A program made the translations under genes and the position numbers. A model generated the notes under the pieces. That model saw nothing but the letters and a program-made list of their open reading frames with translations, did not search any database and was not told where the DNA came from. A DNA stretch of 64,000 bases from Kiritimatiellia bacterium (lineage in GTDB: Bacteria; Verrucomicrobiota; Kiritimatiellia; RFP12; UBA1067), in NCBI GenBank assembly GCA_017454745.1, contig JAFTCL010000018.1, positions 1-64,000 of the forward strand, read 5' to 3'. This document shows, piece after piece, positions 1 through 45,427 of the stretch (position 1 is its first letter; each line of letters begins with the position of its first letter).

Positions 1-354
1 CCCCCCCCCCCCCCATAAAAACGGCTTGCTTTTTCCCGGAATGTTTGGTAGATTTATCTCGTCACGCTAAAGGCATGGTGTCTTTAGGTGGTGGGGTGGG
101 GGTTTTGCAATTACCTCAGCTGATAATCCGCAAACTTTCAAAGGCTACTACAATACCTTATAGAAAATCAAGCGGAAAACGGATTGGGCAAGAAAATGAA
201 TTAAAAATTCTCACACCGCAAACATCCGCCATCAGCCGCCAAAAAAAAACACTACGCCTGAACAAAGGCCGTGTATATTACCCCCCCCCCCCCCTATGTC
301 AAGCCGGAAATGCGAAAAAAGCGAAAAAAGTTTTCAACAGGGAAGAGGGAGATT

Positions 355-432
355 GGAAATGAAAAATGAAGAGATAAGAATGAAGAGCGAAAGGGGATGG
401 GAACCGTGTAGAACGGGTAGAAACGGGTAGAA
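355..432 (+). repeat. 78-bp direct repeat, copy A
   Basis: By-eye alignment gives 76 of 78 identical bases with 1894-1971, in the same orientation. The two copies flank the DUF4143 ATPase gene (612-1784). The unit begins GGAAATGAAAAATGAAG and ends in repeated GGGTAGAAAC words. Confidence 0.85.
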
Positions 433-471
433 AGGGGAAGGGAACCGGGTAGAACGGGTAGAAACGGGTAG
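390..471 (+). repeat. 41-bp tandem duplication
   Basis: Two adjacent 41-bp units (390-430 and 431-471) differ at two positions. Each contains the word GGGTAGAAC followed by GGGTAGAAAC. The distal copy of the dispersed repeat at 1894-1971 has only one unit, so copy number varies between loci. Confidence 0.8.
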
Positions 472-611
472 AATGAGGGGGGGGGGAAGTTACGAGTGAC
501 GGGTGACGAGTATATCTTTGCGATTCTATGTGTTTTTTGTGGCTAAAAAATTCTACACGATCTGCACGCTCTACACGGTTTTAATAATCGGTAACTGGGT
601 AGAAAGAGGGG

Positions 612-1784
612 TTAGATTAGGCCTGTAACAAACTCCACATAATTTTCCCTCGACACGCAATGCCATTTGGCGTTGGGGTAGGCCTCGGCAAACGCCTTAG
701 GGCATTTCGCCTTTGCCGCTTTTGCCGGGCTCCATTTGAACTCATAGGCGGCAAGCCCATTTTCGGCAGACTCCTCAACATAATCGATCTCGTTCGTGCC
801 GCTCCCGACCATTCGCCAGAAGAACGGCTGCACATCCAACTCTTTCAACCGGTTGTGCTTCATCCGTTCCGCTATCAGGTAGTTCTCAAAGAGGTGCCCA
901 GTGTCGTCTCGCGAATCGATCGGCAGGAAATTGCCTATTACCGCGTTTCTGATGCCGGTGTCGCAAAAGTAGATCTTCCTCGATTTTTTAAGCTCCTTTC
1001 TGGCGTTTCTTGAAAAGGCCGAAAGCCGGAACACCACGAAAGCGCGCTCCAGACGCTCGACATACGCGGCCACCGTCTCGTTGTCGACCCCGATCAACCC
1101 GCCGACCTCGTTGTACGACACCTCATCCCCGATTTGAAGCGCGAGAGCCTTAACCAGTTTCCCAAGCACATCGGAATTCTTCAGGTTTTGCCATTTCAGG
1201 ACATCTTTGAACAGGTATGCGGAACAGAGGCTCTTGAGCGTGCGTTTGCGCCGGGTGTCTGTCGGGTCTGTCACGACATCCGGGTACGAACCGTAAAGGA
1301 GCCTTGTCTCAAGCGAATTCCGCTCCGATACCGGATTTGCCGCCCCCGCCAATTCGGAAAACGAGAACGGCGAAAGGACGTACTCGTCCATACGCCCAGT
1401 CAGCGGCTCCCCGACCTCCTCGGAAAGCTCGAAAGAGGAAGACCCCGTGGCGACAATGCGAACATCCTTCAGCCGGTCGTGGATGATCTTGAGCGTCAGG
1501 CCGACGTCCCGTATCTTTTGCGCCTCGTCAACGAACAGCGTTTTGGCCTTCCCGATGATTGAGCGGGCTTTTTCCGGCGTCATGGTTTCGTAAGCGAGCA
1601 ATTCCCGCTCCCCCATGACGTCACCAGAAAGCGTTACGACGCCTTCTCTGCGGATGTCATTTGCCGACAGGATGTGCTCGATCAGCGTGGATTTTCCCGT
1701 CTGCCTCGACCCATAGAGAATCACGACTTTCTTATCCCGTACCGCCACGGCAAGCCTTTCCTCCAAATCGCGGGTGATATACAT
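612..1784 (-). CDS. DUF4143-family AAA ATPase
   Basis: Predicted 390-aa cytoplasmic ATPase of the AAA_14 plus DUF4143 type. The Walker A motif GSRQTGKST lies at residues 25-33 and a Walker B-like stretch ending FVDEAQ follows; the C-terminal half looks like the nuclease-like DUF4143 region (FEWKWSPAK-type motif near the end). The frame is open further upstream, but the start is set at 1784 because AGGAGG sits seven bases before that ATG and the extra N-terminus is hydrophobic nonsense. Members of this family are abundant and mobile in anaerobes, and their role is not settled. It lies between 78-bp direct repeats and has its own palindrome-bearing promoter, so it looks like a self-contained cassette. 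A second, distant relative lies at 10730-12085. Confidence 0.85.
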   Translation of the reverse strand: MYITRDLEERLAVAVRDKKVVILYGSRQTGKSTLIEHILSANDIRREGVVTLSGDVMGERELLAYETMTPEKARSIIGKAKTLFVDEAQKIRDVGLTLKIIHDRLKDVRIVATGSSSFELSEEVGEPLTGRMDEYVLSPFSFSELAGAANPVSERNSLETRLLYGSYPDVVTDPTDTRRKRTLKSLCSAYLFKDVLKWQNLKNSDVLGKLVKALALQIGDEVSYNEVGGLIGVDNETVAAYVERLERAFVVFRLSAFSRNARKELKKSRKIYFCDTGIRNAVIGNFLPIDSRDDTGHLFENYLIAERMKHNRLKELDVQPFFWRMVGSGTNEIDYVEESAENGLAAYEFKWSPAKAAKAKCPKAFAEAYPNAKWHCVSRENYVEFVTGLI

Positions 1785-1807
1785 ATTCCAACCTCCTTGT
1801 GCCGCAT

Positions 1808-1862
1808 AGTGTATAATAAACTTTTTGCGATTGCAATCGCAAAAAATACGTATTTTTTGCGA
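1808..1862 (-). promoter_or_regulatory. Promoter with two overlapping perfect palindromes (candidate operator)
   Basis: On the minus strand a TTGCAA (-35, 1831-1836), 17-nt spacer and TACACT (-10, 1808-1813) precede the ATPase gene. The -35 is the centre of a 24-bp perfect palindrome (1822-1845). A second, 26-bp perfect palindrome (1837-1862) shares its arm, giving three alternating copies of TTTTTGCGA and its complement. This geometry suggests a repressor operator over the -35. Confidence 0.65.
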
Positions 1863-1893
1863 AAAGAATAGTAGATGGAGGGGAGAGAGGGGA

Positions 1894-1971
1894 GGAAATG
1901 AAAAATGAAGAGATAAGAATGAAGAGCGAAAGGGGAGGGGAACCGTGTAGAACAGGTAGAAACGGGTAGAA
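1894..1971 (+). repeat. 78-bp direct repeat, copy B
   Basis: Second copy of the repeat at 355-432, with two mismatches, 1,539 bp apart, on the far side of the ATPase gene. The rest of the gap up to 2220 is non-coding and of low complexity, with GCAACA-type words (2047-2095) and a purine-rich tract; I see no gene in it. Confidence 0.85.
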
Positions 1972-2164
1972 CAACCGGGATTGTTGATGAACAAGGCAGA
2001 AAGAGCGCCAAAGGGGTTAATCCAAATGCAAAGTCCTAATTGGATATTGGCAACATTGGAACTGGCAACACTTCCACAATGGCAACATTCCACAGTCACG
2101 AACAAATCCGTTTGTTTTCGGCCGCAAAGGGCACAAAGTACACAAAGGAGGGGGGAGAGGGGGG

Positions 2165-2194
2165 AATGAAAAATGAAGAGATAAGAATGAAGAG
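2165..2194 (+). repeat. Partial third copy of the dispersed repeat
   Basis: Thirty bases are identical to 358-387, the 5' part of the 78-bp repeat, in the same orientation and directly downstream of the toxin-like gene's stop codon. The repeat family therefore brackets both the ATPase and the edge of the AbiEii locus. Confidence 0.8.
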
Positions 2195-2220
2195 ATAAGA
2201 GGGAAGAGGGGTATTATCCC

Positions 2221-2844
2221 TTAGTCAACCACCCCTTTTAAAGAAATGCGCGTCAATTCCATTCGAATGGCATCATCGGCAGGAGGGGACTCCATAAGAT
2301 ACTCCACTTTTTCCGTATAATCGACATCCGAGAAATAGGACAACTGTGCCCTAAACAATTTTTCGGAGAACATGTCACCGAATACTTCCAGTGCCTTGTT
2401 AACAACTTCTTCCAATGTGAAATGCCGCGTAAGAAGAAAATATAAATCGACGTAATCTTTCCATTTTGAGCGTCGCCCCAACGCGTAAGCTTTCATCGCC
2501 GCAAGAGTAAGGAGTGACGGTATCCGGAAAACATCATTGTATCCGGCATCTGGCAAGATGGTAAACGGATATTGGGAAAAAGTCAGTTTTACATCGTCTA
2601 CAATAAGGTTCATCTGCTCATGTACACGGCGCGTCACAATATAGTCAAACCCCGAAGCGGCGATTTTGTCCAAATTCTTTTTATGGTTGATTGCCGACTG
2701 CTTAAATAAGTCAAAGTCAACCGATCGGCGATGGCCAATATATAAAGCAATTGCCGTCCCCCCGACAAGATAGTATTCGCGGCGGAATTGTGCCATAAGT
2801 GGCAGGAGCGCGGTTTGGGCACGATTTAGTACTTCGTCATGCAT
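2221..2844 (-). CDS. AbiEii-type nucleotidyltransferase (toxin-like)
   Basis: The 207-aa product matches the nucleotidyltransferase fold of AbiEii/DUF1814 proteins. The active-site block reads GGTAIALYIGHRRSVDFDLF at about residues 28-47, with the two catalytic acidic residues in DFD, and a later WKDYVDLYFLL segment is typical of the family. AbiEii proteins are the toxin half of AbiE systems, which inhibit growth or abort phage infection by nucleotidyl transfer. The upstream partner overlaps it by 8 bp, implying translational coupling. The partner is not a classical AbiEi antitoxin, so this may be a variant pair. Length is somewhat shorter than the roughly 300-aa classical AbiEii. Confidence 0.8.
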   Translation of the reverse strand: MHDEVLNRAQTALLPLMAQFRREYYLVGGTAIALYIGHRRSVDFDLFKQSAINHKKNLDKIAASGFDYIVTRRVHEQMNLIVDDVKLTFSQYPFTILPDAGYNDVFRIPSLLTLAAMKAYALGRRSKWKDYVDLYFLLTRHFTLEEVVNKALEVFGDMFSEKLFRAQLSYFSDVDYTEKVEYLMESPPADDAIRMELTRISLKGVVD

Positions 2845-3103
2845 ATTTCTTCAGAACCAATGAAAAGAAGTTCCTGATTTCGGGATAATAGTTGCCGGCT
2901 TTACGGCCCGTCGCGGAAAAGAACACCCGCGCGAGATGTTCCGGCGTTATGGCGCGCATCAGTTCACGGAAATCGTCAAGTGTCCCGTAGTTCAAAACCG
3001 TCTCAACCAAAAGGTCATCGCTGATATCGAGCTTGGCATTCTCTGGCGTGTACCAAAAGAGCGCACGGTGCTCATTTATGAAGCTTTCTCGGCTCGTTGA
3101 CAT
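2837..3103 (-). CDS. Small partner protein of AbiEii (putative antitoxin)
   Basis: An 88-aa protein encoded just upstream of, and overlapping, the AbiEii-like gene. It contains an LFWYTPE segment and a VLNYGTLDDFRELM helix followed by RKAGNYYPEIRNFF. That arrangement resembles small proteins that often accompany AbiEii nucleotidyltransferases (I believe the DUF6922 type, from memory). A GAGGG Shine-Dalgarno precedes the ATG. Antitoxin function is inferred only from gene order and overlap; no DNA-binding helix-turn-helix is obvious. Confidence 0.65.
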   Translation of the reverse strand: MSTSRESFINEHRALFWYTPENAKLDISDDLLVETVLNYGTLDDFRELMRAITPEHLARVFFSATGRKAGNYYPEIRNFFSLVLKKYA

Positions 3104-3147
3104 AATTAAAGTCCCTCAAACCCACCCCATTACTAATGAAGTTTGGG

Positions 3148-3168
3148 AAACATTTTACCATAATGTTT
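3148..3168 (-). promoter_or_regulatory. Inverted repeat upstream of the AbiEii pair (candidate operator)
   Basis: AAACATT and AATGTTT arms are separated by 7 nt. On the minus strand the repeat overlaps a TAAAAT -10-like box, 45-65 bp upstream of the partner gene's start. Toxin-antitoxin operons are usually autoregulated through such sites; the assignment here is inference. Confidence 0.45.
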
Positions 3169-3179
3169 GGACAAAAGCA

Positions 3180-3252
3180 AATGAAGAATGAAGAGTGAAG
3201 AATGACGGGTTATGCAACAATTTTTCACTCTTAATTCTTAGCTTTTCATTTT
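3180..3252 (-). terminator. Long imperfect stem-loop after the mannose operon
   Basis: GAATGAAGAGTGAA-type sequence near 3186-3200 is nearly complementary to TTCACTCTTAATTC near 3225-3238, and AATGAA/TTCATT extend the arms. It lies directly after the isomerase stop codon, so it may end that transcript. The words resemble the dispersed repeats at 355 and 2165, so it may instead be a repeat remnant. There is no long T tract on the exit side. Confidence 0.35.
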
Positions 3253-3258
3253 TTTAGA

Positions 3259-5013
3259 TTAGCGGATGAAGGCTTTTATGGTGGCGTGGGGGTGGGTGGG
3301 ATTTGGGTCTAGGGGGCGGATGGTGTAAGGCCCAACCGACGCCGGAACGATAAAGGTTTCGGCGTAGTGGACAGTGAAAGGACCGAAAGCTCCGGTCGGG
3401 CTTTCCACCACCGCCGCCTCTCCTTCCACCAGATTCAACACATTTACACCGCCGGCGGTGTCGTGCCCCACCGATCGGGCGAACCAATGCCGCCGGGTCT
3501 CGATAAACTCGAAACCGTGCAAACCGGTGCGCTCTTCCTTAACGCCGGGCGTTTCCGATAGCGTTTCCACCCTACCGACCAAATTTCGGCGCGCCCATTC
3601 CGTGTCGCGGTCGAACCGGATGTTCGCCAGCGCGTGCCCGGTGTGGACCGGGCGCGGCCTACCATCCAGCCCAACCCGGCCCCAATCCCACATCTTAAAG
3701 GTAAAGATGTACGGGGTGGCGGAAATTTCCAGCACCATGCAGTTCGCCCCGGAACAGTGGACGGTGCCAGCCGGAATCAGGAAATGGTCGTGCTTCTTGG
3801 CGGGGAAGGCGTTCACGTACCGTTCGGCATCGAATCGCCCGCTCCGCTCGCTCTCGCGCAGCGCGGCGGCGAATTCGGCTTTGGACACGCCGGATTTAAC
3901 CCCCAGAAAAACGCGTGGGGCCGCCGCCGGGTCGGCGTCGAGCAGGTAATAGCTTTCGTCCTGGGTATAGTGCATCCCGAAGGTTTGCTGAATGTAATCC
4001 GTCAGCGGGTGGCACTGCAACGACAAATTGCCGCCGCGCATGGTGTCGAGCATATCGAAGCGGATCGGGAACTCGGCGCCGAAACGGGCGTAAACCTTAT
4101 CGCCAAGCAATTCGCGGGGCTGGCGGAAGACCAGATTGATCGCGGGGGTCTCCAGCGTGACGCCGCCCACCTCAAACAGGAGCGAGTTCTCTTCCGGCAC
4201 GCAATCGAAACTCCAGGCGAAATTCGGGGGATCGGGATCCAGCGCGAATTTCTCGCGCATCCACTGTCCGCCCCAAACCCCGGGATCGAAATAGGGCTTT
4301 ACCCGGAACGGGCGGGCGGCTGCCACCTCCAGCCCCCGGCGGAACGCGGAGCCGGTCATCATTTTCGGCCCGGCGGAATTGGTGTCGAGCAGATAGTCGA
4401 TGCGGTCGTAAAGTCCGCGCTTGTGGCGGTCCAACGCCCGCCAATCGACAAAGTATCCGCGCTTGTAGAGGCGCAGCGGGTCTTCCCCGGCGTTATCGTC
4501 CAACCAATTGGGGAGCCGTCCGGAACGGAACCGGAGCTGGATTTCCCACCGCGCCATGTCCGCGTAGATGAGCAGGTCGGGGTCGGGACAGCAGACCGAT
4601 GCCGCCACGCCGTAAACGAGAATGACGCCGGAAGGGATCGCGGCCAGCCGTTGCGAAAAGGCGGCTACCGCCTCCGGATCGAAGAAGTCCGACACCTCCC
4701 AGCGCGACATAAAGGCGAAAACGCGGTCGTCGCCAAGGTCGCGGGCGAGCATCGAGCGCACCGCGTCTTTGGATTTGTTGGCGGCGCGAGTCTCCAGAAC
4801 GGCATCCGGACGCAACTCCCTGCGCAAGGCGTCCAGCACCTCGGCCTCCCACACGCCGTGGTAGAGATCGACGCAGACCACGGTACGCCGTCCGGAACGG
4901 GCGGCGACCGCGCCGCGCAACTCCGCGCCGATTGCGTTCCAGCCGGCCACGGCGTAGTCGCGATCCGTGGCCGGCACCAAAACCGAGGGGAATTTATCGT
5001 AGGAAGTTGTCAT
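3259..5013 (-). CDS. Class I mannose-6-phosphate isomerase-like protein with extra N-terminal domain
   Basis: A 584-aa protein whose C-terminal part is a cupin of the type I phosphomannose isomerase family, which interconverts mannose 6-phosphate and fructose 6-phosphate. The metal-site motif is LSLQCHP (Q333, H335), and a second cupin motif is IPAGTVH (H419). The first 220 or so residues form an extra domain without a visible P-loop that I cannot assign; long isomerases with such an extension occur in Bacteroidetes and PVC bacteria. The start codon overlaps the GH92 stop in an ATGA arrangement, so translation is coupled. The context is mannose release (GH92) followed by entry into glycolysis; the kinase needed in between is not nearby. 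Confidence 0.75.
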   Translation of the reverse strand: MTTSYDKFPSVLVPATDRDYAVAGWNAIGAELRGAVAARSGRRTVVCVDLYHGVWEAEVLDALRRELRPDAVLETRAANKSKDAVRSMLARDLGDDRVFAFMSRWEVSDFFDPEAVAAFSQRLAAIPSGVILVYGVAASVCCPDPDLLIYADMARWEIQLRFRSGRLPNWLDDNAGEDPLRLYKRGYFVDWRALDRHKRGLYDRIDYLLDTNSAGPKMMTGSAFRRGLEVAAARPFRVKPYFDPGVWGGQWMREKFALDPDPPNFAWSFDCVPEENSLLFEVGGVTLETPAINLVFRQPRELLGDKVYARFGAEFPIRFDMLDTMRGGNLSLQCHPLTDYIQQTFGMHYTQDESYYLLDADPAAAPRVFLGVKSGVSKAEFAAALRESERSGRFDAERYVNAFPAKKHDHFLIPAGTVHCSGANCMVLEISATPYIFTFKMWDWGRVGLDGRPRPVHTGHALANIRFDRDTEWARRNLVGRVETLSETPGVKEERTGLHGFEFIETRRHWFARSVGHDTAGGVNVLNLVEGEAAVVESPTGAFGPFTVHYAETFIVPASVGPYTIRPLDPNPTHPHATIKAFIR

Positions 5014-8000
5014 AGTTTTTTCTCAAGGACGGCGGAAGGCGAACGAACGCGTCCAATTGCAATCGTCAAACCGCCAACTCCCCAGTTCTTGTTCGGCTCC
5101 GATCCCATCCAGAGTTCGAGCGTGCCGCCTTTCAAAACTTCCCTCGCGTCCACCAGGAAGGAGTTGAGCGGTTTGCCGTTCAGTTCCGCCCGCTGAACGT
5201 ACTTGTTCACGCGGGAGGCGCCGTGCGCGATGATGGTGAACTTGTCGCCGCGCCCGAAACGCTTGCCGAGATTGATCGACGCCTGCTCGTAAAGCGGGCT
5301 GGCGATTTCGTACACCGGATCCGCCCGGCAGCCGCCGTCGGTCTGGAACAGGCCCAGCGACGCCATAACCAGCCACGCGCTCATCTGGCCCTGGTCTTCG
5401 TCGCCAAGCCAGGCGGACGCGGTGCCATAGCCGTAGTAGCGTTCGAGAATCCGGCGCGCCCACTTCTGCGTCTCCCAAGGCTCGCCCGCCCAGTTGAAGA
5501 GGAACGCGAAGTGCATCGACTGCTGGTTGCCCTGCACCACGGGGTAAGCCGCGTAATTCTCGTTCGGCGAATTGAAGCGCACCAGATCGCTCCGCTCAAA
5601 GCCCCATTTCAACCGCTCCAGAAAGCGGTCCCGGCCGACCCGCGAGACGAGTCCCGGCACATCTTGCGGGACAAAGTAGGTGAGCTGCCAACCGTTGGCC
5701 TCCGTGTAGCCGGAACCATTGAAGGGGTTGAAGTCCGCTTTCCACGCGCCATTGGAGTCGCGGAGCTGGCAATATCCGGTTTCGGGATTGACGGCATTCC
5801 GCCACCAGCCGCCGCGGTCGTTGAATACCGCGTAGTCGTCCATCCGGCCGATGGCTTTGGCGAACTGGCCGACCGTCCAGTCGTCGTAACTGTATTCCAT
5901 GGAGTTGGAAAACTTTCCCTTGTCGCTCGGCACATAATGGAACTCAAGGTACGGCTGGAGATTGCGGTTTCCGGCGTATCCGCGCCCGACCTTCTGGGCG
6001 GGCGTGGTCTGCATCTTCCTGAACGCTGCCATCATTTTTTCCGGGTCGCACGGACGGATACCCATCTGCCAGGCGCTGACCATCTGGGGGATTTCGTGCT
6101 CCGCCACCATCACCGGCACATAGCGCATGCCGGCCGGGCCTTTGCCCAGCCAGCCGCCGGCGTCGTACAGCGCCATCTGCGACTTCACCCAACGGGCGCT
6201 CCACTCCGGCCCGACCAGATTCCACACCTGGTTCAGATTCCAGAACGTGTTCCAGAACGCATCGCACCCCAGCGCGCGAGAATCGGAATCGGCAAACTGC
6301 CGGATCTGGTCCAGCGGATCGTTCCAGCGACCGTCAACGTCGTTGAAAGTGTTGCGGCAGAACGAACGGTAGAGGTTGGTGTAGAAACGCATCTTTTCGC
6401 GGCAGTCGCCGGTGGAGATCTGGACGCGGCCCAGCAGATCATTCCAAGCCGCCTCGTTGGCCGCGCGCACTTTGGCGAAATCCCAGCCGAAGGGATCCTC
6501 GACCTCGCGCTTGAGGTTGTTCGACGCGCCGTTAACATCGACAAACGAGATGCCGGAACGCAGCTGCACCACGGTTTTGCCGGAATCCGGCGCGAACTCG
6601 ACGTAGCCGCCGAAAGCCGTCGGGTTCTGCGCGATCAAGCCGCTGCCGCTCCAAGTCGTATCCGACGACCATCCGCCGACGGCGGTGATGTCGCGGTCGA
6701 ACTCCAACACGAAATAAACCGTATAGAACTGGTCGGCGTCCCGACTCCAAACGCGCGGGGTTTCCTGTTTGGAATAACCCTCAATCCGGCGCGGGCCGGT
6801 CTTGCGCATCTCGCAATTGATGACGGAATAAGTATATTCGGTGGGGGTGAAAAGATCGATCATCACGCGCGGCGTCTGCCCGGCGGGATAGGTATAGCGC
6901 TGGAAGCCGCAGCGGTCGGTGGCGGTGAGTTCCGCGTAAATGTCATAATCGGTCAGGCGCACCGCATAGTAGCCCGCCTTGCAGATTTCCGATGCCTTGT
7001 CGATATAAGAGCGGTAACCGTCCGCATGGCCGGCCAGTTCGGAACTGCTGCCCATCTTCGTTTTGAGCTCCCCGGTCACCGGCATCGTGCCAAGCCCCGC
7101 CATGGTCCATTCGTGAATGTGGCTGAAGGTCCCGACGCTCTCGACCGTAGGATCGTATCCGCCCTGCCAAAGTCCCCTGCCGGGGGTACCCTCGTTGTCG
7201 GGGCTGAGCTTCACCATGCTGAAGGGCATCCAGGGGCCGGGCGCGAGCATCCAGCGCGAATGCGCCGTTCCCATGCGCGTGTCCACGTAACCGGCCACGC
7301 CGGCATCCCGCTGCGGGGAACGGGTGACAGTCCCTTCCTGGACGGGCTTGCCGTCAACTAGCACGCGATAGGTTGACCGGGTTTCCTCCGCGACGGCGGG
7401 CATGGGGGCCTCGAACACATACGCGCCCGATTCGACCGTTTGCGTCAGCACGGTATTGCCGTCCACCTCAACGCGCAGGACCGGCAAACCGGCGAGGTGC
7501 TCCACCCCCACCAGCAGCGGCTGGGTCCGCGTTCCGGGAATCAGGTAATCACCGGGACGGACGGACCGCACATAAGCGCCGGAATGCGCAAGGTTGACCT
7601 TTGCGCCGTCCGGGCCTTCCAGACGAATGGCATCGAAAATCGCCCAGCTCCCCTCCAGAGAGGTGATCGCCACCTCGTTCGCGCCAGCACGGATTTCATC
7701 CGCCGCGAGGTCGATCCGGATGGTATGGGGAACCGCCTTCGAGAAATCCCCCTTCAAGATCGACGCGTCTCCGCCGCCTTTGGGCAGCGCGAATTTCCGA
7801 GCCTTGCCGTTAACGGAAATCTTCACCAGCGGGGGTTTGGAACTGTGCACGTCGGCGAAATCAACAATCAGCGCCCAAGCGCCGGAATCACCGACGGACG
7901 AAACATCGAAAAGAATGTTCACCCATTGGGTACGGCGGCCCGCACCGCCGCTCGATCCCGCCCAATGGTCCGCCTCGCCGGGAAGAACGTAGGGGAAGGC

Positions 8001-8198
8001 TTTCTTGGGGTCGGAGTGGCCGACCAGAAAAAACTTGTCCTCCCAGCCGAAATCCTTTTCCAAAAAATCCGCGTAGCCGGTCGGCGCGAGCGCGAACTCG
8101 TTTCCCGTCCCGTCCTTGGCGCCGATCTGCCACAGCGTCTGCGACGCCGAGACATTGAGCGCGGCCACCGCCGCCGCAATCCACAAGCCATTATTCAT
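5010..8198 (-). CDS. Secreted GH92 alpha-mannosidase
   Basis: A 1,062-aa glycoside hydrolase family 92 exo-alpha-mannosidase. The start at 8198 gives an N-terminal signal peptide (MNNGLWIAAAVAALNVSAS). A beta-sandwich N-terminal region follows, then the GH92 core beginning VDTRMGTAHS near residue 320. Conserved blocks include GTFSHIHEWTMAGLG, FYTNLYRSF, GYTEANGWQL and GDEDQGQMSAW near residue 900; the acidic residues of the last block belong to the calcium-dependent active site. It acts outside the cytoplasm on mannose-containing glycans. The longer open frame would add 29 residues without a signal sequence, so that start was rejected. It is cotranscribed with the isomerase downstream. Confidence 0.92.
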   Translation of the reverse strand: MNNGLWIAAAVAALNVSASQTLWQIGAKDGTGNEFALAPTGYADFLEKDFGWEDKFFLVGHSDPKKAFPYVLPGEADHWAGSSGGAGRRTQWVNILFDVSSVGDSGAWALIVDFADVHSSKPPLVKISVNGKARKFALPKGGGDASILKGDFSKAVPHTIRIDLAADEIRAGANEVAITSLEGSWAIFDAIRLEGPDGAKVNLAHSGAYVRSVRPGDYLIPGTRTQPLLVGVEHLAGLPVLRVEVDGNTVLTQTVESGAYVFEAPMPAVAEETRSTYRVLVDGKPVQEGTVTRSPQRDAGVAGYVDTRMGTAHSRWMLAPGPWMPFSMVKLSPDNEGTPGRGLWQGGYDPTVESVGTFSHIHEWTMAGLGTMPVTGELKTKMGSSSELAGHADGYRSYIDKASEICKAGYYAVRLTDYDIYAELTATDRCGFQRYTYPAGQTPRVMIDLFTPTEYTYSVINCEMRKTGPRRIEGYSKQETPRVWSRDADQFYTVYFVLEFDRDITAVGGWSSDTTWSGSGLIAQNPTAFGGYVEFAPDSGKTVVQLRSGISFVDVNGASNNLKREVEDPFGWDFAKVRAANEAAWNDLLGRVQISTGDCREKMRFYTNLYRSFCRNTFNDVDGRWNDPLDQIRQFADSDSRALGCDAFWNTFWNLNQVWNLVGPEWSARWVKSQMALYDAGGWLGKGPAGMRYVPVMVAEHEIPQMVSAWQMGIRPCDPEKMMAAFRKMQTTPAQKVGRGYAGNRNLQPYLEFHYVPSDKGKFSNSMEYSYDDWTVGQFAKAIGRMDDYAVFNDRGGWWRNAVNPETGYCQLRDSNGAWKADFNPFNGSGYTEANGWQLTYFVPQDVPGLVSRVGRDRFLERLKWGFERSDLVRFNSPNENYAAYPVVQGNQQSMHFAFLFNWAGEPWETQKWARRILERYYGYGTASAWLGDEDQGQMSAWLVMASLGLFQTDGGCRADPVYEIASPLYEQASINLGKRFGRGDKFTIIAHGASRVNKYVQRAELNGKPLNSFLVDAREVLKGGTLELWMGSEPNKNWGVGGLTIAIGRVRSPSAVLEKKL

Positions 8199-10729: not shown

Positions 10730-12085
10730 TCATTCGATAATGCAAGAGTCCATGAGCCTTTTGATAAGAAACGCCGTCCACTGCGGAAGCGTCAACACAC
10801 CATTAACGAATCCGACATTTCCCTTGATCAGCTTTATCCCCCATGTGATGTCCGGGTAACGGTCACTGTCAATTAGCGTCCTTAGCGACTTGGCCTTGGA
10901 GGAACCGGCCTTTACCTCGACCGGCACAAGGCTTTCCGCATCACGCAGGAAGAAATCCATTTCAAGCGACGAGTCATCGCGTTTGTAGTAAACGAGCGGG
11001 ACGCCGCTCTTTGCCAACGCCTCGCCGACAATATTCTCGAAAAGTCCGCCCTTGTATGTGCCAAGGTTGCGGTTTGCCCGGAAATCGCGCTGCGATTCGG
11101 CGTCAAGATGTCCTAGAAGGAGGCCGCTGTCGGCAAGGTATATCTTGAATTTGTCCTCGCACTGGTTACCACCTATCGGTAACTCCGGAAAGGACATTGC
11201 GTAACAGACGTTTATCACGCCAGCGTCCTTAAGCCAATCAACGCATCCCCGATAGTCCTTAAACCTCGCGTCCTTCGCCACCTTGGAGATCTGGAATTTT
11301 TTGTTCTCCTTTGCAAGCTGTTGCGCCACATGGTCCAGCACATTCAATATGCGAGTCTGGTCAACTCCCTCCGCGTACTTCCGCACATCATCCCGATACG
11401 CGCGGAACAATTCCCGCTGAAGCGCCAACGATCCCTCGAAGGTCCCTTTGTCAAAGTAGTTTCGCAAGATTTCGGGCATTCCGCCCAACGCGCAATAGTC
11501 AAGGAACCGGCTATCCATCAAGCCAAGCGTCATGTCGTCGAACGGACGCCGTTCCACCATGTGCGCGAAAAGTCCATCAACGAATACCGAATCGTAGCCG
11601 CATCCCCACAGAAATTCCTCAAAGTCCAGCGACGCGAGATCATAGTCGGTTTTGTATCCGACGGGAATGCTGGCAATCTGCTTGTAATTCACCCCAAGCA
11701 TCGAACCGCTTGAGATTATGTCAAAACGCCCATCCTCCTTGAAATCCTTGAACGTCGTCGCGACATCGGGGAACTCCTGAATCTCATCGAAAAACAAGAG
11801 CGTACGCCCGGGTATGAATCGTAGCGTAGGATCGAGCGCGGACATGCGCTTTATGACGCGATCGGCCTTGTAGCCGTCTGCCGTAATCTGCTTGAACTCC
11901 GGTTGGAAGACGAAGTTGACTTCAATGACATTGTCGTAATGGGAGTTTGCGAAATGCCGAATCGACTCCGTCTTGCCGACCTGGCGCGCCCCCTTGACAA
12001 GAAGGGGCTTGCGGCCTGGGTTTGATTTCCACGACGCCAACCAAGCATCGAATTTACGGCGCAAATATCTGGTTTCTTTCCTCAT
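10730..12085 (-). CDS. DUF4143-family AAA ATPase (second copy type)
   Basis: A 451-aa ATPase with Walker A GARQVGKTE at residues 32-40, Walker B FFDEIQ, and a C-terminal DUF4143 region carrying a PD-(D/E)XK-like SLVPVEVKAG motif. It has the full family length and shares only the general family architecture with the ATPase at 612-1784. No Shine-Dalgarno precedes the ATG; instead a -10 box ends 9 nt before it, which suggests a leaderless mRNA. Three 33-bp repeats lie just upstream of the promoter. It sits between the mannose operon and the AraC-type regulator and does not obviously belong to either. Confidence 0.85.
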   Translation of the reverse strand: MRKETRYLRRKFDAWLASWKSNPGRKPLLVKGARQVGKTESIRHFANSHYDNVIEVNFVFQPEFKQITADGYKADRVIKRMSALDPTLRFIPGRTLLFFDEIQEFPDVATTFKDFKEDGRFDIISSGSMLGVNYKQIASIPVGYKTDYDLASLDFEEFLWGCGYDSVFVDGLFAHMVERRPFDDMTLGLMDSRFLDYCALGGMPEILRNYFDKGTFEGSLALQRELFRAYRDDVRKYAEGVDQTRILNVLDHVAQQLAKENKKFQISKVAKDARFKDYRGCVDWLKDAGVINVCYAMSFPELPIGGNQCEDKFKIYLADSGLLLGHLDAESQRDFRANRNLGTYKGGLFENIVGEALAKSGVPLVYYKRDDSSLEMDFFLRDAESLVPVEVKAGSSKAKSLRTLIDSDRYPDITWGIKLIKGNVGFVNGVLTLPQWTAFLIKRLMDSCIIE

Positions 12086-42970: not shown

Positions 42971-45427
42971 TCACGTTCCGTAAATCTGTTTGGCGGCAGC
43001 CACCGTGGCCATGGCGTCCTTGGAATAGCGGTCCGCTCCAATCTGGCGGGCGAACTCTTCGGTCAAAACCGCGCCGCCCACCACCACCTCGAATTTGAGT
43101 CCGGTCCGGGCCTCCGCCTCGCGCAACAGCTTGATGGTGCGCTCCATCCCCACCACGGTGGTGGTCATCAACGCGCTCAAACCGACCATCCGGATTTTCC
43201 GGTCCACCGCCACCTGCACAATCTGCTCCGCCGGAACGTTCTTGCCCAGGTCAACCACCGTGAAGCCGTAGTTTTCCAGCATCGCGGTCACAATGTTTTT
43301 GCCGATGTCGTGGATATCGCCCTCGACGGTGGCCATCAGCACCGTACCCTTGGATTCCTGCCGTTCGCCGGAAGCGTCCAGATGACGCTTGATCACCTCA
43401 AACGCCTTGGAAACGGTCTGCGCACTCAACAGCAGCTGGGGCAGGAATTTCCGTCCGCTCTCAAAATCGCGCCCCACCTGGTCCAGCGCGGGGATGATGT
43501 GGCCGTCCACAATCTCGATCGGGAGTTTTCCGGCTTGCAGCAGTTCCGAAACCGCCGCCGTGGCGGCATCGGCGAAACCTTTCACGATCGCCGATTGCAG
43601 CGGCGACATCGTTTCGCCCGGTCCCGGCGCGGCGGCAACCGCCGGTTTATCGCCCGACGGACCGACCGCGGCAACGGTTTTCGGCAGGGCATCGGCGAAC
43701 TGGATGTATTCCAGACAGTTTTCATCGAACGCCGCCACCGCCCGGTAAACCCGGAACGCGGTCATCATCTCGACCGACAGCGGATTGATGATGCCCGCGT
43801 CCAATCCGGCGAAAAGCGCCATGCCGAAAAAGTGCGAGTTGATCAAGCCCCGGTTCGGCAACCCGAAGGAGATGTTCGAGACGCCAAGCACCGTTTTCAG
43901 TCCGGCGTCGCGATACTCGGACTTCAGTTGCGAAATCGCACGGAGGGTGGCCATCGCCTCGCGCTGCTGCGAACTGATGGTCAGGGTAAGCGTGTCAACA
44001 AGAATGTCGTGCGGCTTAATACCGTATTTCGCCGCCTCGGCGATGATTTTGCGGCCGATCGCCACCCGCCCCTCGGCGGTAGGCGGAATGCCGTCCTCGT
44101 CCAAACACAGCGCCACCACCGTGCCGCCGTACCGCGCCACCAGCGGGAACACCGCATCCATCACCGCCTGTTTGCCGTTAACCGAGTTAACCAGCGGCTT
44201 GCCGTTAACCACCCGCAAGGCCCGCTCCAGCACCGCCGGTTCGCTGGAGTCGATTTGCAACGGCGTGTCAAAAGTCTGCTGCAACAGTTTCACGGTGTTG
44301 ACCATCGTGGCGGCTTCATCGATACCCGGCACCCCCACGTTAACGTCAAGAATATGCGCGCCGGCGTTGATTTGGGTTTCCGCCTCGTTCAGCACGAACC
44401 CAGTGTCGCCCGCCCGCAACGCGGCCTGGCAACGTTTCTTGCCGGTGGGATTGATCCGCTCCCCGATTACCACCGGCCCCGCCCCGCCGGGCACGTTGCC
44501 GATTTCAACCGTCCGGCGGGAAGAGCAAACCCGGGTTACCGGACGTTGGACCGGGCAGGGCGGCAACTCCTTCGGCATAGCCCGAATCATCGCGGCGATG
44601 TGTTCCGGCGTGGTGCCGCAACAGCCGCCGAGAATCCGCACCCCGGCCATGGCGTTCGCAACCTGCTGCCGGGCGAACTCTTCTGGGCCGACCTTGAAAA
44701 CGGTACGCCCGTTTTCAACCACCGGAAGCCCGGCGTTGGGTTCCGCCAGCACCGGCAGCGAAGTGGCCGCGCAAAAGGCTTTGGCCAACTTGCCCGAATC
44801 TTCAAGCGACCCGCCGCAGTTGAACCCCAGCGCATCCACCCGGAGGGATTCCAAAAGCGTTGCGATTGCCAGCGGGTCGGATCCGGTCAACGTCCGAAGG
44901 TCCGGCTCAAAAGCCATCGAGGCGAAAAGCGGGAGTTTGGTGTTTTCCCGCACCGCGAGCACCGCCGCCTTCATTTCGTACAGGTCGGTCATGGTCTCGA
45001 TGAAAATGAGGTCCGCGCCCGCCTGCTCCGCCGCGATTGCGGAGGTTTTGAACGCCTCGTAGGCTTCCTCAAAGGGTAGCTTGCCCAGCGGTTGCAGCAA
45101 CTGCCCCACCGGACCGATATCCGCCGCCGCCAGACATTTGCGGCCGACCTCGCGAATGGCGCGGCGCACGCATTCAACGCCGGAACGGTACACCGCGTAG
45201 GTATCCAGTCCGAAAGCCGCGAGCTTCAAAGGGTTCGCGCCGAAAGTGCAAGCGGTCACGATGTCCGACCCCGCCTCGACATAACGGCGGTGTAGTCCGA
45301 CCAAAAAATCCGGTTGGGTCAGCGTCAGCTCTTCTGGAACGCTGAACCCGGTTATTCCGGCGGCCTGGATTAAGGTGCCTTGCCCGCCGTCAAGATAAAC
45401 GGGCCGGTTTAATTCGGGAAATAACAT
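42971..45427 (-). CDS. metH: Cobalamin-dependent methionine synthase, lacking the activation domain
   Basis: An 818-aa MetH. The homocysteine-binding domain (1-300) has the zinc cysteines C204 (GFNCGG) and C269-C270 (GGCCGTTPEH). The pterin-binding domain begins VIGERINPTGKKR near 320. The cap and B12-binding modules end the protein, with the cobalt-ligating histidine H706 in GDIHDIGKN. The C-terminal AdoMet-activation domain of E. coli MetH is absent, as in many anaerobes that carry a separate reactivation protein; none is seen in this window. The ATG at 45427 is preferred to an in-frame TTG seven codons upstream. No B12 riboswitch fits the short leader. Confidence 0.93.
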   Translation of the reverse strand: MLFPELNRPVYLDGGQGTLIQAAGITGFSVPEELTLTQPDFLVGLHRRYVEAGSDIVTACTFGANPLKLAAFGLDTYAVYRSGVECVRRAIREVGRKCLAAADIGPVGQLLQPLGKLPFEEAYEAFKTSAIAAEQAGADLIFIETMTDLYEMKAAVLAVRENTKLPLFASMAFEPDLRTLTGSDPLAIATLLESLRVDALGFNCGGSLEDSGKLAKAFCAATSLPVLAEPNAGLPVVENGRTVFKVGPEEFARQQVANAMAGVRILGGCCGTTPEHIAAMIRAMPKELPPCPVQRPVTRVCSSRRTVEIGNVPGGAGPVVIGERINPTGKKRCQAALRAGDTGFVLNEAETQINAGAHILDVNVGVPGIDEAATMVNTVKLLQQTFDTPLQIDSSEPAVLERALRVVNGKPLVNSVNGKQAVMDAVFPLVARYGGTVVALCLDEDGIPPTAEGRVAIGRKIIAEAAKYGIKPHDILVDTLTLTISSQQREAMATLRAISQLKSEYRDAGLKTVLGVSNISFGLPNRGLINSHFFGMALFAGLDAGIINPLSVEMMTAFRVYRAVAAFDENCLEYIQFADALPKTVAAVGPSGDKPAVAAAPGPGETMSPLQSAIVKGFADAATAAVSELLQAGKLPIEIVDGHIIPALDQVGRDFESGRKFLPQLLLSAQTVSKAFEVIKRHLDASGERQESKGTVLMATVEGDIHDIGKNIVTAMLENYGFTVVDLGKNVPAEQIVQVAVDRKIRMVGLSALMTTTVVGMERTIKLLREAEARTGLKFEVVVGGAVLTEEFARQIGADRYSKDAMATVAAAKQIYGT

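Follow-up and report, generated by a model that had tools for sequence, protein, structure and literature searches.

PDC-S01, a PADLOC candidate that combines the Pfam domains AAA_14 and DUF4143, is given in the available text of the literature as one of the most abundant defence candidates reported: one report ranks it fourth by frequency among prokaryotic defences and describes frequent transfer (PMC12988326), and another places it first among individual loci in the cattle rumen (PMC13356809). The same text treats PDC-S01 as functionally unvalidated, and the antiviral activity of phage-defence candidates of this type as mostly so. In the available text of the literature searched, we found no description of direct repeats around PDC-S01 or of the route by which single copies move.

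Several described arrangements resemble parts of what we report here. Integron gene cassettes are alike in that one array of the congener discussed below (G001 C6) consists of single genes, separated by repeats and sharing one reading orientation; however, the repeats of the other loci are mutually unrelated, the repeats of the locus analysed here do not fold as an attC hairpin, and the genes carry their own promoters. Transposon target-site duplications are likewise direct copies of the target on both sides of an insert, with the ends of host genes included, but the repeats reported here range from 30 to 290 bp instead of having a fixed length, and the unit between them has neither a transposase nor terminal inverted repeats. 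Short intergenic heptamers such as TAACTGA form direct repeats in Beggiatoaceae, Cyanobacteria, and Bacteroidetes, where their patchy distribution suggests horizontal transfer (PMC4679880). Those heptamers lie upstream of start codons and show no functional pattern in the genes downstream (PMC4679880), whereas in the present case the phrases are longer and composite, and lie on either side of ATPase and toxin-antitoxin genes.

We analysed a stretch of 64,000 nucleotides from a Kiritimatiellia bacterium (contig JAFTCL010000018.1), here called the window, in which a PDC-S01 ATPase gene is enclosed by direct repeats. A target-derived bracket of this kind would define a mobile unit with an operator, a gene, and an end near the stop codon. 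It also offers a means of detecting gains and losses, and it makes the recombinase-free movement of single defence genes directly testable.

The ATPase gene of the window and its repeats

A preliminary description of the window had reported near-identical repeats in the same orientation around a DUF4143 ATPase gene, a third partial copy, and a promoter and operator belonging to the gene between the repeats. Each of these features was recovered (Table 1). A repeat search returned the ungapped direct pair 355-432 / 1894-1971, which is 97% identical over a 78 bp core, and the gapped pair 339-432 / 1879-1971, which is 92.6% identical over 95 columns. The pair scored 134 bits compared to a maximum of 25.6 bits in 200 Markov shuffles of region 1-3400, which rules out chance similarity. 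The third copy, which the repeat search placed at around 2150-2204, comprises only one half of the repeat, and the promoter and operator lie between the full copies. The ATPase is the sole gene between the repeats, and no transposase was found there.

Table 1. Positions and strands of repeats, genes, and flanking DNA near the start of the window
Feature	Position	Strand
Direct repeat copy 1, ATPase downstream side; AATGAAG-type heptamers and then GTAGAACGG-type phrases	339..432	+
Extra copy, GTAGAACGG-type half only, directly after repeat copy 1	430..473	+
Inverted GTAGAACGG-type piece, adjoining the ATPase stop codon on its downstream side	551..580	-
AAA_14-DUF4143 ATPase, 390 aa, PADLOC PDC-S01	612..1784	-
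ATPase promoter (TATAAT-like) and palindromic operator TCGCAAAAA..TTTTTGCGATTGCAATCGCAAAAA	about 1806..1862	-
Direct repeat copy 2, ATPase upstream side	1879..1971	+
Intergenic phrase of TTGGCAACATT type, also in C82, C15, and the congener's C6 array	2028..2098	.
Partial third copy, AATGAAG half only	2147..2211	+
AbiEii-like nucleotidyltransferase, second accessory gene in the non-conserved 3.2 kb	2221..2844	-
DUF6922-like small protein, probable partner of the nucleotidyltransferase	2837..3103	-
AATGAAG phrase, hairpin form, ending at the border with conserved DNA	3180..3253	.
Conserved flank, 94% identical to congener G001 C21:40097-45039	3256..8198	.

The window repeat combines two families of short phrases in a mosaic, one a run of heptamers (AATGAAR) and the other a run of roughly 10-mers (GTAGAACGG type), and its two copies do not fold (-3.5 and -2.0 kcal/mol). 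The GC content of the accessory stretch is 44-58%, compared to about 60-64% in the conserved flank. A second DUF4143 ATPase gene within the window, at 10730-12085, has no repeat bracket. Near the contig start, positions 1-14 and 281-294 are poly-C runs of 14 C each, and an 18-G run ends another contig of the source genome (G000 C15:64869-64886). Such homopolymer tracts are otherwise nearly absent in the 0.7 Mb examined and are possibly phase-variable tracts or assembly ends.

The ATPase matches the PADLOC PDC-S01 profile over its whole length (E=1e-136), and its Pfam scores are 126 bits for DUF4143 and 92 bits for AAA_14. Its Walker A motif is GSRQTGKS. The AAA+ motifs are invariant, as are D334 and E348xK350 in the C-terminal part, a motif consistent with a PD-(D/E)XK-like nuclease domain. 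The AlphaFold2 model of the ATPase is confident (pLDDT 91, pTM 0.90), and a fold search of the PDB matched only generic AAA+ proteins of the ORC/STAND type; a sequence search of the PDB gave no match. The operator and the TATAAT-like box that follows it are kept in six orthologues, 72-81% identical, from rumen Kiritimatiellae and Victivallales MAGs. Inspection by eye of the DNA surrounding three of the six showed none of the phrases of the window repeat, which implies that the conserved unit is the gene with its operator and that the repeats belong to the site. We infer that phage defence would be the trait for which this module is selected.

Direct brackets around DUF4143 genes and the origin of the repeats

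A gene was scored as bracketed when a repeat of at least 50 bits was common to the 700 bp beside both of its ends. Direct brackets were present at 7 of the 25 DUF4143 genes of the source genome (G000), at 6/15 of those in its congener (G001; about 95% nucleotide identity), at 17/48 in G009 and G018 together, and at 6 of 32 orthologues in a wider set of MAGs (Kiritimatiellae, Bacteroidota, Ignavibacteria, and others). By contrast, brackets were found at 0/85 random genes in the G000/G001 test, at 2/82 neighbour genes in G009 and G018, and at 2/136 neighbour genes in the wider set, from which DUF4143 genes had been removed; control genes shorter than 120 aa were left out. The pooled counts are 36/120 for DUF4143 genes and 4/303 for controls (p=9e-18), and direct brackets outnumber inverted ones by 36 to 4 (p=2e-7), where both p-values are too small because orthologous pairs are not fully independent. 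The contrast in bracketing between DUF4143 and control genes is not in doubt.

Most of the loci tested come from MAGs. An assembly artefact is nevertheless an unlikely source of the brackets, since most of the repeat copies are 3-20% divergent and two separate assemblies contain one and the same pair. About two thirds of the DUF4143 genes are without a bracket, and no convincing direct bracket was seen at 12 complete-plasmid loci of isolates, save one ambiguous case in Collinsella. That about one third of the rumen relatives are bracketed, each by a different local sequence, suggests that one-gene units come and go. We favour, as somewhat probable, the reading that the ATPase gene is a single-gene accessory module, gained and lost by recombination at direct repeats derived from its target.

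The bracket repeats are locus-specific. Their sequences are unrelated between loci, the best match of a copy is in most cases its partner, and pairs differ in length and identity (110 bp and 100% at C50; 79 bp and 98.7% at C57; 69 bp and 95.7% at C38; 143 bp and 96.5% at G001 C40). Often they are copies of target or local sequence, such as the 3' end of a neighbouring gene. The repeat at C38 consists of the final 69 bp of a methylase-like gene, which was named from its translation alone, and the second copy lies behind the ATPase gene. Likewise, the repeat is the 3' end of a glutathione peroxidase gene at L231 in an Ignavibacteria MAG, and of a methylmalonyl-CoA mutase gene at L250 in a Bacteroidetes MAG. 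On its 3' side the unit often ends no more than about 20 nt from the stop codon. Its 5' limit is tens to a few hundred bases upstream, with the operator included.

In some tandem arrays, paralogues could account for the repeats. Four tandem DUF4143 genes, 47-66% identical, occupy G009 C67 (L332, 2824-9505), and each is followed by a spacer fragment, 82-94% identical to the others, that is apparently the 5' end of the next gene. Tandem gene duplication is unlikely here, because the genes resemble one another less than the spacer fragments do, and the array looks like the product of serial insertion at one site.

Target-derived repeats that vary by locus, a 3' boundary so close to the stop codon, and invariant AAA+ and nuclease motifs would also be expected if DUF4143 were a self-mobilising one-gene element, whose ATPase and PD-(D/E)XK-like domain cut and insert their own gene, operator included, with a long and variable target duplication. 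If true, self-insertion by a DUF4143 ATPase-nuclease would explain the recombinase-free spread of one of the most common defence candidates. We consider this quite improbable, given that the duplications span 30-290 bp, that no terminal inverted repeats were seen, that the bracket is mostly missing on the plasmids of isolates, and that genes for RhuM, an acetyltransferase, a 23S rRNA IVP, and HipA occur in the same type of array.

Distribution of the window repeat

A whole-genome search returned 47 matches of the window repeat in about 25 contigs. The best match outside the window, C82:15652-15728, lies directly upstream of another DUF4143 gene and is 95% identical to the window copy, which is almost as similar to it as to its partner. 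In 260 kb of random sequence (13 stretches from long contigs), a pattern scan found 0 heptamer sites of the AATGAAG type and three weak 10-mer sites. On its own, the heptamer half is also present between large genes of ordinary type, and G001 has it at corresponding positions. The composite form clusters at accessory genes, namely those for DUF4143 ATPases, a HipA toxin, an ATPase_2-type protein, and other AAA ATPases, and in G001 also at an AAA-ATPase_like/PDDEXK_9 gene. A site lies within 600 bp of 9 of the 25 DUF4143 genes of the source genome, compared to 7/165 controls. The composite repeat shows a strong association with cargo of the ATPase and toxin-antitoxin kinds. The preliminary description had set a repeat found throughout intergenic regions, and with no link to ATPase or mobile cargo, against its own proposal of a cassette. 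We reject such a cargo-free dispersed repeat for the composite form and retain it for the AATGAAG half alone.

These distributions bear on the possibility that the bracket arises as a by-product at accessory junctions dense in repeats, in which dispersed AATGAAG and GTAGAACGG phrases build up beside foreign genes, flank the ATPase gene by happenstance, and have no role in its movement. The many genome-wide matches, the AATGAAG half between ordinary genes at orthologous positions in the congener, and the closeness of the window copy to the C82 copy are what such a by-product would give, whereas the lack of AATGAAG sites in 260 kb of random sequence and the brackets at C38, L231, L250, and C22, which contain no such phrase, are not. 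Moreover, the 36:4 excess of direct orientation is unexpected for random flanking repeats, and the neighbours at the same loci are rarely bracketed. We regard a by-product as rather unlikely, and prefer a module that recombines at its repeats.

At many intergenic sites of both species, the AATGAAG phrase also takes the form of an imperfect but complete hairpin, about 75 bp long, which is possibly a terminator or a REP-like element.

Relocation and proposed gain and loss between two species

Synteny between the window and G001 stops at 3256, and the window ATPase is absent from G001. In G001, one GTAGAACGG phrase lies beside the conserved gene. Because the contig does not extend to the left flank of the window, this junction does not count as a clean empty site, and the left neighbour in G001 matches G000 C45 at only 78%. 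Of the three sites that allowed comparison, none proved to be a clean empty site holding exactly one repeat; at the pair G001 C40 / G000 C23, the species without the gene is also without the repeat.

Two DUF4143 units have relocated between the species. The gene at C57 is at G001 C65 (98% aa identity) and the gene at C37:27543 is at G001 C6 (93% aa identity), in both cases between different flanks, and homology of both units ends near the stop codon and 225-300 bp upstream. The finding of one unit at different loci rests on these two pairs rather than on the window's own copy. Exchange at a single locus was also seen: at C58/C53, unrelated DUF4143 genes (23% aa identity) lie between common flanks in the two species, and at C50/C16, where the right flank is common, different DUF4143 genes lie between related repeats. 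An insert of about 3 kb with HipA and HicBA-like genes, between SpoIIE and ATPase genes at C82, is absent from G001 C33, where the junction holds a cluster of phrases. The preliminary description had proposed a cassette that could move or be deleted, and had pointed to relatives that lack the ATPase and keep one repeat. The mobility of such units is borne out in part by the recurrent and mostly direct bracket, the two relocations, and the absence of the ATPase from the congener; the single repeat left at a clean empty site was not found.

Under the reading that we favour, whose mechanism is moderately supported, the ATPase gene, together with the operator and promoter that belong to it, would constitute a single-gene PDC-S01 module at an accessory junction, bracketed by a direct duplication of target-site sequence. 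Modules of this kind would be gained, lost, and added serially via recombination at the direct repeats, where a unit of one gene and one repeat copy would pass between repeat copies, either within a site or from one site to another. Recombination between repeats would be the route, presumably by way of a circular or transforming intermediate. The repeats themselves may have originated by homology-mediated integration, or by insertion with a long target duplication.

An array at G001 C6 (L147, 5257-9082) raises the alternative that integron-like or other site-specific recombination is at work, with each repeat serving as the att site of a dedicated integrase. Six repeat copies in the same orientation, 90-97% identical, separate four single genes there, which encode a hexapeptide acetyltransferase, a RhuM-like protein, a DUF4143 protein, and a 23S rRNA IVP, and the repeat folds strongly (z -6.2), so that this locus does resemble a cassette array. 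The absence of folding in the window repeats and the unrelated repeats of different loci speak against this, and we hold a dedicated integrase to be highly improbable.

As for the rate of recombination between repeats, the pair C22:41920-42008 / 43479-43568 and its counterpart at G001 C49 are informative. Each copy is 100% conserved between the species, and the two copies differ by 9%. The copies have thus been distinct since the species split, which implies that recombination there is infrequent, and homogenisation by gene conversion was not seen at this locus. The repeat, which carries a hairpin with 13-bp arms in genomes that otherwise differ by about 5%, may be under selection.

A different kind of change was observed in a DUF4143 gene that is full-length in G000 C37. 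Its 5' end has been lost in G001 C62 (L186) at 7650-7700, where the gene and a CGCGACGGAGCGCG phrase share a short homology.
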